This document shows positions 19,725 to 63,827 of a stretch of 64,000 bases of DNA, in pieces. How positions within the stretch are numbered: the first letter of the stretch is position 1; the number at the start of each line of letters is the position of its first letter. The notes beneath the pieces were generated by a model that saw only the letters and a list, made by a program, of their open reading frames with translations, had not been told where the DNA came from and did not search any database. Source of the stretch: Rhizobium oryzihabitans (GTDB lineage Bacteria > Pseudomonadota > Alphaproteobacteria > Rhizobiales > Rhizobiaceae); NCBI RefSeq assembly GCF_010669145.1, contig NZ_CP048632.1:124001-188000 (forward strand). Direction: 5' to 3'. The translations under genes and the position numbers were made by a program.

Positions 19725-21958
19725 TCATTCTGCGGCGATCAAAGTTTCGCCGTCCATGAATTGAGGGAACCACGATTCATAGGCCAAGTGCAATTCTTTA
19801 ATCTCGACAGCCCGCGCCGTGCCCAGCTTTACGCTTGCACCGCCGGTGACGCCGATTGCCGGGCAGGAAACGCCTGCCGCCTTGGCCGCCGCCTGCACCT
19901 TGTCGAGATCGGCCTTCTTCACCGTCAGAACGTAACGACCCTGGTCTTCGCCATAGAAGGTGAGGACCGGATTGTGGCCTTCGACCGCATCGATCGTCGC
20001 GCCAATGCCCGAGGAAATCGCCATTTCGGCAACAGCAAGTGCGAGACCGCCCGAAGAGCAATCGTGAACGGCTGTCGTAAGACCGTCGGTGATGAGCGTG
20101 CGGACGAAATCGCCGTTCGTCTTTTCGGCTGCCAGATCCACATGCGGTGCCGGGCCATCGATGCGGCCATGGATGTCGCGCATGTAAACGGACTGGGCGA
20201 TGTGGGTGCCGAGACCGGCAGGCGCGCCGACCAACAGCACCACCTCGTCAGCCGCAGCAAAGCGGATGCGCGCCATGCGGTTCCAATCCTTCAGGAGCCC
20301 AACGCCGCCGATGGTGGGGTAGGCAGGATCGCCTGACCGTTGGTCTCGTTATAGAGCGAGACGTTGCCGGAAACGATCGGGAATTCCAGCACGCGGCAGG
20401 CTTCGCCGATGCCCTTGATGGCATGCACGAGCTGGCTCATGATCTCCGGCTTTTCCGGATTGCCGAAATTGAGGTTGTCGGTGGCCGCCAGCGGCAGAGC
20501 ACCGGTTGCGGTGATGTTGCGCCAGCATTCGGCCACGGCCTGCTTGCCGCCTTCGAAAGGATCAGCCTCGACATAACGCGGTGTGACGTCGGAGGAGAAG
20601 GCGAGCGCCTTCTTGTCATGGCCTTCGACGCGAACCACGCCCGCATCCCCACCCGGCAGCTGCAGGGAGTTGCCCTGGATCAGCGTATCGTACTGTTCGT
20701 ATACCCAGCGGCGCGAGGAGTTGTTGGCCGAACCGACCAGCGATACCAGCGCGTCGGCAATGTCTGCGTCTGGAACGTCGTTCTCCGAAAGCGGCGCCTG
20801 AACCTTGGCGGGCGTCCACGGACGGTCATATTCCGGGGCCTGATCGCCGAGATCCTTGATCGGCAGGTTGGCGACTTCCTCGCCATTGTGCAGCACGCGG
20901 AAGCGCAGGTCGTCGGTGGTCTTGCCGACGATGGCGAAGTCCAGACCCCACTTGACGAAGATCGCCTTGGCGACTTCTTCCTTGGAGGGCTCGAGAACCA
21001 TGAGCATGCGCTCCTGGCTTTCCGAGAGCATCATTTCGTAAGCCGTCATGCGCTCTTCGCGCACCGGTACGGCGTTGAGATCGAGCTCGATGCCGAGATC
21101 GCCCTTGGCGCCCATTTCAACGGCCGAGCAGGTGAGGCCGGCTGCACCCATGTCCTGAATGGCGATGACCGCGCCGGTCTTCATCAGTTCGAGGCAGGCT
21201 TCCAGCAGGCACTTTTCGGTGAAGGGGTCGCCAACCTGAACGGTCGGGCGCTTTTCTTCGATGGATTCGTCGAATTCGGCGGATGCCATGGTCGCGCCGC
21301 CGACGCCGTCGCGGCCGGTTTTTGCGCCGAGATAGACCACCGGCAGGCCGACGCCCTTGGCTTCCGAGAGGAAGATCGCATTGGACTTGGCAAGGCCGGC
21401 GGCAAAGGCGTTAACGAGGATGTTGCCGTTGTAGCGCGGGTCGAACTCCACTTCGCCGCCGACGGTCGGCACGCCGAAGGAGTTGCCGTAACCGCCAACA
21501 CCGGCGACGACGCCGGCCACGAGGTGGCGGGTCTTCGGATGATCGGGTGCGCCGAAGCGCAGGGCGTTCATGGCCGCAATCGGGCGGGCACCCATGGTGA
21601 AGACGTCACGCAGGATGCCGCCGACGCCGGTCGCCGCACCCTGATAGGGTTCGATGTAGGATGGGTGGTTGTGGCTCTCCATCTTGAAGACGACGCAGTC
21701 GCCATCGTCGATATCGACAACGCCGGCATTTTCACCGGGGCCCTGAATGACGCGTGGGCCCTTGGTCGGCAGGGTCTTCAGCCACTTCTTGGAGGACTTG
21801 TATGAGCAGTGCTCGTTCCACATGGCCGAGAAGATGCCCAGCTCGGTAAAGCTCGGCTCCCGTCCGATCAGGTCGAGGATACGCTGGTATTCGTCGAGCT
21901 TCAGCCCGTGGGATGCAACGAGTTCCGGGGTGATCTTGATGGAATTTGAGATAGACAT
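19725..21958 (-). pseudogene. purL: Phosphoribosylformylglycinamidine synthase subunit PurL, frameshifted in this sequence
   Basis: Catalytic large subunit of FGAM synthase (de novo purine synthesis, fourth step), working with PurS and PurQ, which are encoded at 25.4-26.3 kb. The coding frame from 21958 runs about 547 codons and then shifts. The peptide ...NGQAILPTP is followed by a nonsense tail and TGA at 20291-20293, while the true continuation ([20 protein letters not shown]) is in the next frame down to 19725. One base is missing in or near the GGGG at 20316-20319. Adding one base gives exactly 745 codons (744 residues), the usual PurL length. Everything else is intact, including the ATP-grasp-like [13 protein letters not shown] and ESHNHPS regions. 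A real lesion would cause purine auxotrophy, so a sequence error is more likely. Confidence 0.9.
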
Positions 21959-22072
21959 AGGTCTCACGCGGTTCGAGCCGAGGAAAGTTTCCGGTTCTTT
22001 ACCGCAAGAGGCTTGATCGTGCGACAGGAAAATGCGCCGTTTTGCCGGCAAAACGCTGCTTTGTTGGCATAT

Positions 22073-22663
22073 TCAGAACTTGTAGCCGACCATTAGTCCC
22101 ACACGCGTCAGCCCGTCATTGGGGCCGTCGCACAGATTGGCGTGGGAGGCATGTTCGATCTGAGTCGAAATATTCCAGTTGCTGTTGAAGCGATATCCGA
22201 TGGCGGCATATTCATGAAAAAGCACGCGGCAGCCGAATTCCGCGCCGGTTTCGCCCGGGCCGTTTCTCAGCCTGCCATCATGCCACAGGCCGCCAAAGCC
22301 GAGGTCGACGAAAATTTTCGGATTGAGGTCGAAGGTCCAGTTGACGCCGCCGTAAATGGTATTTGCTTCGCCCTCGGTGCCGATTTCCGCACCCAGATGC
22401 AGTCGTGGGCGGGCAAGCTTTTCGCCAAGGGTGACGGCCGAGGCGCTGGCGAAGGGATCGAAATAGGCGGTAAAGGCCGGGAATACGCCGTCTTCGCCAC
22501 CGCCACCGCGATCGGCGAGCGAGGTCGTGACCCCGAAACGCAATTCATCGAACACCGTGCCGTCTGCGGCGGCGGCCGGCGTCATGTCACTCAACACACA
22601 TGCTGCGAAAACCATCGCGAGAGCAACAAATGCCCTGGCGGATATGGAACCGAATGCTGCCAT
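22073..22663 (-). CDS. PagL-like lipid A 3-O-deacylase / acyloxyacyl hydrolase family
   Basis: Outer-membrane beta-barrel protein of 196 residues with an N-terminal signal peptide (hydrophobic about 10-33, cleavage near AAA-DG) and a C-terminal aromatic residue typical of barrel proteins. The C-terminal block IEHASHANLCDGPND contains the H-x-S-type catalytic pattern of PagL with a following acidic residue, suggesting removal of a 3-O-acyl chain from lipid A. Alternating strands such as IYGGVNWTFDLNPKIFVDLGFGG match an eight-stranded barrel. The start at 22663 follows GGGGAA. Catalytic assignment is by motif only. Confidence 0.75.
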   Translation of the reverse strand: MAAFGSISARAFVALAMVFAACVLSDMTPAAAADGTVFDELRFGVTTSLADRGGGGEDGVFPAFTAYFDPFASASAVTLGEKLARPRLHLGAEIGTEGEANTIYGGVNWTFDLNPKIFVDLGFGGLWHDGRLRNGPGETGAEFGCRVLFHEYAAIGYRFNSNWNISTQIEHASHANLCDGPNDGLTRVGLMVGYKF

Positions 22664-62820: not shown

Positions 62821-62934
62821 TTCTCTACTCCTTGATCGGGCCATTTGAGGCCGCGTCTGATGGAAAAGATATTCCTTGCCGACATTTTCGAATAGGGGCA
62901 GTAATCAGCATGAAGCTATAAGGATGCCTAATGA

Positions 62935-63827
62935 ATGCCGCAGGAGAACTTCAACGATCTGGCCGCCTTCGTCACGGTGGCGCGCGAGCAGAGCTTTACC
63001 CGGGCGGCCGTCAAGCTGGGTGTCTCGCAGTCCGCGTTGAGCCAGACGGTGCGCGGCCTTGAAGAGCGGCTGGGCCTGAGGTTGTTGACGAGAACGACGA
63101 GGCGCGTTTCACCCACGGCCGCCGGTGAGCGTCTGCTTCAGACAGCAGGTCCAAGGTTCGACGAGATTCAGTCCGAGCTTTCGGCACTGAGCGACATGCG
63201 GGATAAGCCCGCGGGCACAGTGCGCATCACGGCGGGGGAACATGCCGCCATTTCCGTCCTTGCGCCAGCGCTGGACAAAATCCTTCCGAATTACCCTGAT
63301 ATCAATGTCGAGATTACCGTCGATTACGGGCTGACGGATATCGTTGCGGAGCGTTACGACGCCGGCGTGCGGCTCGGCGAGCAACTTGCGAAGGACATGA
63401 TCGCGGTCAAGATCGCCCCGAAATGCGCATGGCCGTGGTGGGTGCGCCATCCTATTTCCGGCAGAACCCCTGGCCAGAGGTGCCCGAGGATCTGACGGCG
63501 CATAATTGCATCCAGATACGCATGCCGACCTACGGCAACATCCTTTTCTGGGAGTTCGAAAAGGATGGCCATGAACTCAAGGTGAGAGTGGAAGGGCAAC
63601 TCGTCTTCAACAACATCGCCATGCGCCTCGATGCCGCGAAACGGGGTCTTGGCCTTGCCTATATGCCTGAGGACATCGTTGCGGAGGATATCGCGAAGGG
63701 AACGCTGATCCGGGTTCTCGAAGATTGGTGCGCGCCTTTTTCCGGCTACCATCTTTATTATCCAAATCGGCGTCACGCGTCTCCGGCTTTCGCACTCGTG
63801 GTGGACGCGCTGCGATATCGCGGATAA
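62935..63827 (+). pseudogene. LysR family transcriptional regulator, frameshifted in this sequence
   Basis: LysR regulator with an N-terminal helix-turn-helix at about 6-65 (FTRAAVKLGVSQSALSQTVRGLEERLG) and a C-terminal substrate-binding domain. The frame breaks at DMIAVKIAP near 63417-63421: EMRMAVVGAPSYFRQNPWPEVPEDL continues in the next frame because one G is missing (GG read as G). Adding one base gives 298 codons (297 residues), the standard LysR length. It is divergent from the aldo/keto reductase gene, its probable target. Probable sequence error. Confidence 0.87.

Follow-up and report, generated by a model that had tools for sequence, protein, structure and literature searches.

Single-base losses beside short G and C runs split conserved genes in an assembly of Rhizobium oryzihabitans and most likely do not reflect its biology

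Introduction

Passages of the Homopolish and Kastor papers describe the errors of long-read assemblies as mostly homopolymer insertions and deletions, which can create false pseudogenes (PMC8011154, PMC12007338), and in one nanopore assembly treated in the Kastor passages the deletions associated with A/T were the commonest (PMC12007338). The subject of this study is a stretch of 64,000 nucleotides (nt) from Rhizobium oryzihabitans, bases 124001-188000 of contig C1 and here called the window, in which purL, a gene for an RhlE-like DEAD-box helicase, an M23 peptidase gene, a DUF455 gene, an AsmA/YhdP-like gene and a lysR gene are each split by one missing base. Compared with what those passages describe, the breaks resemble long-read homopolymer errors in being single-base deletions at short homopolymers and in yielding what would be false pseudogenes genome-wide, detectable against related genomes (PMC8011154, PMC12007338). 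They differ from the Kastor assembly, in which A/T runs were the commonest sites, in that the coding losses found here lie nearly all beside G/C runs (PMC12007338).

Judging from sequence comparison, we consider it very probable that the six breaks are absent from the living genome and were produced by undercalling of G/C runs during base calling or consensus making. Their slippage-like pattern with G/C runs favoured is shared by mismatch-repair-deficient hypermutators, which carry a load of frameshifts through homopolymer slippage. Unlike such hypermutators, the genome studied here has far more losses than gains at G/C runs and open frames for mutS and mutL; in addition ubiA is hit, a gene that a respiring aerobe such as Agrobacterium needs, and constraint is unrelaxed.

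Split genes in the window

The rhlE-like, M23, DUF455 and AsmA-like genes were compared with a kin set of 22 loci of at least 65% identity among the best 80 of 329, purL with 29 loci out of 38 other matching genomes, and lysR with 10 loci; two genomes of the same genus, G018 and G024, served as references. A first-pass annotation of the window had seen each gene as one base short and had proposed a comparison with close relatives. Against most related Agrobacterium the deficit was confirmed and the pieces correspond to one open reading frame (ORF), the extra base being present in kin at the sites, with a mixed result for DUF455.

In purL, which lies on the minus strand, the first piece (20291..22051) is an ORF of 586 amino acids (aa) with AIRS domains and the FGAR-AT linker, and the second (19725..20276) has 183 aa with AIRS_C. 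The one-base frame break between them at 20316..20320 adjoins a short G/C run, as do the other five, and is a net -1 against kin in 29/29 loci and also against both reference genomes. The RhlE-like helicase gene, also on the minus strand, is divided into a first piece of 275 aa with the DEAD domain (33923..34750) and a second of 364 aa with Helicase_C (33159..34253), and its break at 34134..34141 is likewise a net -1 in all 22 loci and against both references. The M23 peptidase gene on the same strand consists of an N-terminal ORF of 353 aa without a Pfam match (35170..36231) and a catalytic piece of 119 aa that carries Peptidase_M23 (34883..35242). Most covering kin and both references have the extra base at its break (35276..35279): of the 22 loci given, 20 cover it, with a net -1 in 16, -4 in three and 0 in one.

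Two of the genes are on the plus strand. The AsmA/YhdP-like gene comprises an ORF of 295 aa without a Pfam match (37774..38661) and one of 823 aa with the YhdP domain PF13116 (38685..41156), and its break, which the first-pass annotation had put at 38564-38566, lies near 38555..38560 in close kin; it is a net -1 in the 18/18 covering loci (22 given, two partial and two without a hit) and against both references. Among the best 80 of 329, the best named relatives of this gene belong to Agrobacterium and Rhizobium, and the nearest kin of its second piece is Agrobacterium genomospecies 13 strain CFBP 6927, with 96% amino-acid identity. The lysR gene has a first piece of 186 aa with HTH_1 and the start of the substrate domain (62935..63495) and a second of 134 aa with the remainder of that domain (63423..63827), and its break at 63415..63423 is a net -1 in all eight covering loci (10 given). 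The gene lies on C1 in the study genome, whereas its best match in G018 is on contig C2, and a near-whole-gene match was obtained in just 8/38 other genus genomes searched, so that lysR is possibly accessory and may have changed its place.

DUF455 is the least clear of the six sites. The gene body (36347..37090, minus strand) is an ORF of 247 aa with PF04305, and its break does not lie in the run of four T at 37156-37159 to which it had been assigned, but a few bases on, at 37163..37168, where it affects the first codons only. A one-base gap at this position was found in 12/13 alignments crossing the site, two of them partial, and the GTG common to 10/12 kin and the gene body stand in different frames in the study genome. 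Net counts within 8 nt of the site range from -3 to +15, with -1 in just 1/13 (net -3 against G018, partial against G024), as kin vary in the stretch immediately 5' of the start. Since the shift falls inside codons 2-4, counted from the kin-shared GTG, little of the gene is lost even on paper.

The pieces stand in one open ORF in 29/29 kin for purL, in 22/22 each for the rhlE-like, M23 and AsmA-like genes and in 8/8 for lysR; for DUF455 this is so in 11/22, the other 11 loci giving no such match. Of the restored lengths predicted from the sequence, 1127 aa for the AsmA-like protein, 297 aa for LysR and 432 aa for M23 were recovered as longest-start lengths in 8/22, 8/8 and 5/22 kin. The values for DUF455 and PurL also agree with their kin, which measure 273-276 aa in 11 loci and 729-753 aa (120 listed of 8000 scored). 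The 501 aa expected for the helicase were not confirmed, its kin being varied in length with 527 aa as the commonest value (4/22). The break positions given for purL, the rhlE-like gene, M23 and lysR held, and the described neighbourhood of G/C runs was correct in kind, its count of five out of six being too low by one.

Frame breaks beyond the window

The study genome measures 5.86 Mb in nine contigs, with 3.195 Mb in C1 and 1.95 Mb in the second large contig, C4. The survey sampled 800 kb of it at three places, of which one (400 kb) surrounds the window, another (200 kb) is a separate part of C1 and the last (200 kb) belongs to C4; from G018 and G024, 800 kb each were taken. A first survey by tblastn was dropped, as it was noisy, with 22-35 "events" in every direction including the controls, because of antisense ORFs and ORFs with misplaced starts. 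Its place was taken by alignments of DNA screened with a filter on codon position, and then by a three-way test, in which ORFs of one relative that are in frame with the other relative are checked in the study genome; as controls, G018 and G024 were each put through the identical test as target.

Gaps were ignored within 120 bases of the ORF start in the first run or 150 in the later run (the merged event set), within the last 20 ORF bases, and where they were compensated at most 60 bases away. In the first run, ORFs were excluded for a conflict of frame between the other two genomes (6 and 4 with the study genome as target; 8 and 10, and 9 and 17, with the controls) or because the check genome gave no alignment (14 and 5; 16 and 47, and 6 and 54, respectively). 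The coding sequence checked amounted to 153,642, 149,748 and 109,758 bp in the three places, together 413,148 bp, and in the window to 36,253/64,000 bases. The codon-position filter can overlook a gene when a longer antisense ORF masks its counterpart in kin; the rhlE-like gene was overlooked by it and examined separately, and the DUF455 and lysR sites, likewise absent from the survey output, were each checked on their own.

Summed over the 120- and 150-base margins, 55/593 ORF tests were flagged for indels of any sign in the study genome, as against 9/572 and 7/536 in the controls. The set merged at the 150-base margin comprised 42 distinct events, of which 32 were pure -1 and the other 10, being insertions, longer indels or of mixed signs, were excluded from the -1 count. 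On realignment, 28/32 candidates proved to be exactly -1 against both G018 and G024, which corresponds to one break in roughly 15 kb of coding DNA. No +1 coding event in the 413,148 bp was supported by both references, and a +1 from one reference occurred in 5 events.

Of the confirmed sites, 9 lie in the 153,642 bp, 11 in the 149,748 bp and 8 in the 109,758 bp checked, and a local hot spot at the window was rejected, since break densities are alike in the three places. The 28 sites fall in 27 genes, C1:1506676 and C1:1506720 sharing one gene. They include those of purL, M23 and the AsmA-like gene in the window, and outside it they cut ubiA, motC, a flagellar hook-associated gene and a PdhS-like histidine kinase gene. 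The same -1 signature was found at C4:324569, in the gene of a protein of 780 aa that matches no NCBIfam model at 1e-20, and at C4:349486, in a gene for an HlyD-family secretion adaptor.

Context and length of the affected runs

A G/C run of at least three within 3 nt accompanies 30/32 pure -1 events, compared with 18% of random positions, and a run of at least four accompanies 23/32, compared with 3.7%. A/T runs of at least four were nearby in 1/32 events, compared with 5.8% of random positions. When the comparison is restricted to runs whose length agrees between both kin, the share of G/C runs that are shorter in the study genome rises with length, from 0/2194 at length 3 over 1/236 at length 4 and 5/49 at length 5 to 7/13 at length 6, and A/T runs are shorter in 1/126 cases at length 5 and 0/31 at length 6. 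The controls were shorter at G/C runs of 5-6 in 2/53 (G018) and 0/52 (G024) cases. Also the crude counts of G/C runs of six or more differ, with 37 in the study genome and 72 and 77 in the relatives (800 kb each).

Isolated one-base gaps were counted over coding and non-coding DNA together. Near G/C runs of at least four, losses stand to gains as 38 to 5 in the study genome, as 5 to 8 in G018 and as 3 to 6 in G024. Over all positions, there are 71 losses and 43 gains in 527,549 aligned bases of the study genome, 39 and 29 in 529,257 of G018, and 41 and 39 in 528,175 of G024. Losses away from G/C runs of at least four are alike in the three genomes (33 in the study genome, 34 and 38 in the controls), so that the surplus of losses is located at G/C runs. 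On these alignments, the putative undercalling is one of G/C runs that hardly touches aligned A/T runs, and it is not local to the window.

Error or mutation

In the explanation that we favour, base calling or consensus making would shorten runs of about 5-6 identical G or C by one base in a small fraction of cases, larger for longer runs, and each base so lost would shift the reading frame and split a gene on paper, the base itself presumably still being present in the organism. The number of breaks in the window would then be the plain genome-wide rate, and the nine contigs for 5.86 Mb suggest sequencing by a long-read method that is sensitive to homopolymers. The systematic undercalling of homopolymers proposed in the first-pass annotation is thus supported by the G/C context, the length trend, the occurrence in three places, the hits in genes such as ubiA, the lack of such an excess in the two controls and an unchanged codon constraint. 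The last point rests on the third-position share of substitutions, which is 1867/2449 (~76%) before the breaks and 1555/2068 (~75%) after them, in ORFs that had entered the test only if this share exceeded one half, so that the equality alone is informative. As codon constraint after the breaks equals that before them, old pseudogenes were rejected.

The absence of in-frame stops from core genes had been claimed as well. Aligned stop codons, counted without the first 50 and last 30 codons of each gene, occurred in 15/176,744 codon tests in the study genome and in 17/166,811 and 23/161,174 in the controls, so that there is no excess; the claim is limited by the part of the window that was checked, and by the ORF at 11235-12158 on the minus strand, which ends before its 291-aa kin ORF in G018 and G024 and has a one-base deficit at 11191 beside an A run, past the stop; its C terminus may truly differ from that of its kin.

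Several observations weigh against undercalling as the explanation, or against the precision with which it can be stated. Four of the 32 candidates were unconfirmed on realignment: the neighbouring C1:90679 and C1:90698, with a net of -2 or -4, and two with poorly aligned flanks, one in hisS near the 3' end and one at a second site in the PdhS-like gene. Isolated gains are somewhat commoner in the study genome (43 versus 29 and 39), and A/T runs of at least six are also fewer (261, versus 358 in G018 and 332 in G024, per 800 kb). When runs of all kinds are pooled and required to have 5-base flanks, 16 are shorter and 12 longer, with 7/6 and 7/11 in the controls; with the same flanks, runs of 5-6 are shorter in 11 cases and longer in none, and the bias is visible at these lengths alone. 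Some of the G/C runs of 5-6 come in pairs with a spacing of 80-110 nt, resembling repeat copies, and hence are not independent. To this may be added the pre-selection of the codon-test ORFs, the deviation of single genes with few substitutions from the pooled third-position share, and the sparing of A/T runs in the alignments, unlike what the Kastor passages report for their nanopore assembly (PMC12007338).

One of these pairs lies in the window at 43894-44008, where runs of 5-6 G or C with a spacing of about 80 nt are one base short compared with kin; at the loss beside the G/C run at 44008, neither the study genome nor G018 has an ORF of at least 90 aa, and G024 has one of 129 aa. Comparable pairs with a spacing of 79-110 nt lie at C1:221890/221969, C1:1497209/1497298 and C4:308963/309073, which suggests an interspersed repeat.

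The rival that would make all breaks real is a hypermutator, for example after failure of mismatch repair, with recent G/C-run losses genome-wide and hundreds of broken genes. Real slippage favours G/C runs too, the breaks are present in the sequence, and their excess is confined to the study genome in the comparison with two controls. Slippage should, however, yield gains as well as losses, and near G/C runs of at least four the losses are far in excess (38 to 5); moreover ubiA is cut despite the need for it, and selection is unrelaxed past the breaks. Failure of mismatch repair was itself rejected, as mutS (919 aa) and mutL (637 aa) are open without in-frame stops, these two being the only repair genes examined. 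We regard a hypermutator as very unlikely, and put somewhat less trust still in a one-sided natural form of it, which would lose and hardly ever gain bases in G/C runs of 5-6, with mutS and mutL open, and would be too recent for decay to have set in. In our view the breaks are most likely errors because constraint is unrelaxed, ubiA is hit, mutS and mutL are open and gains near G/C runs are few.

A mixed origin, in which part of the six, such as lysR or M23, would be genuine recent pseudogenes and the remainder errors, is unlikely. Gene loss is frequent among regulators and accessory genes, and any one site is indistinguishable from an error by sequence alone, so that a single site such as lysR could be a real loss; all six, however, carry the signature of a class that is seen elsewhere in the genome. 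Programmed ribosomal frameshifting, by which the split genes would be read through, has a negligible chance of being the explanation: the breaks adjoin short runs, where slippage can occur, but the 28 confirmed sites lie in mostly unrelated genes, and the kin examined encode the six genes in one frame (DUF455 in 11/22).

Other features of the window

The window contains an RNA match to terC (RF03067, 49.2 bits) at 11084-11142 on the minus strand, and no other Rfam match in the window exceeds the gathering score.

Implications

As a feature of biology, the breaks most likely are not real; as a caveat on the data, they matter. Extrapolation from 28 sites in 413,148 bp, with about 87% of the genome assumed to be coding, gives roughly 350 false breaks for the whole genome. 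Users of the assembly could wrongly infer purine auxotrophy, a ubiquinone defect and many pseudogenes for this organism. A comparison with two relatives can tell assembly artefacts of this kind from genuine loss of genes with no recourse to the reads.

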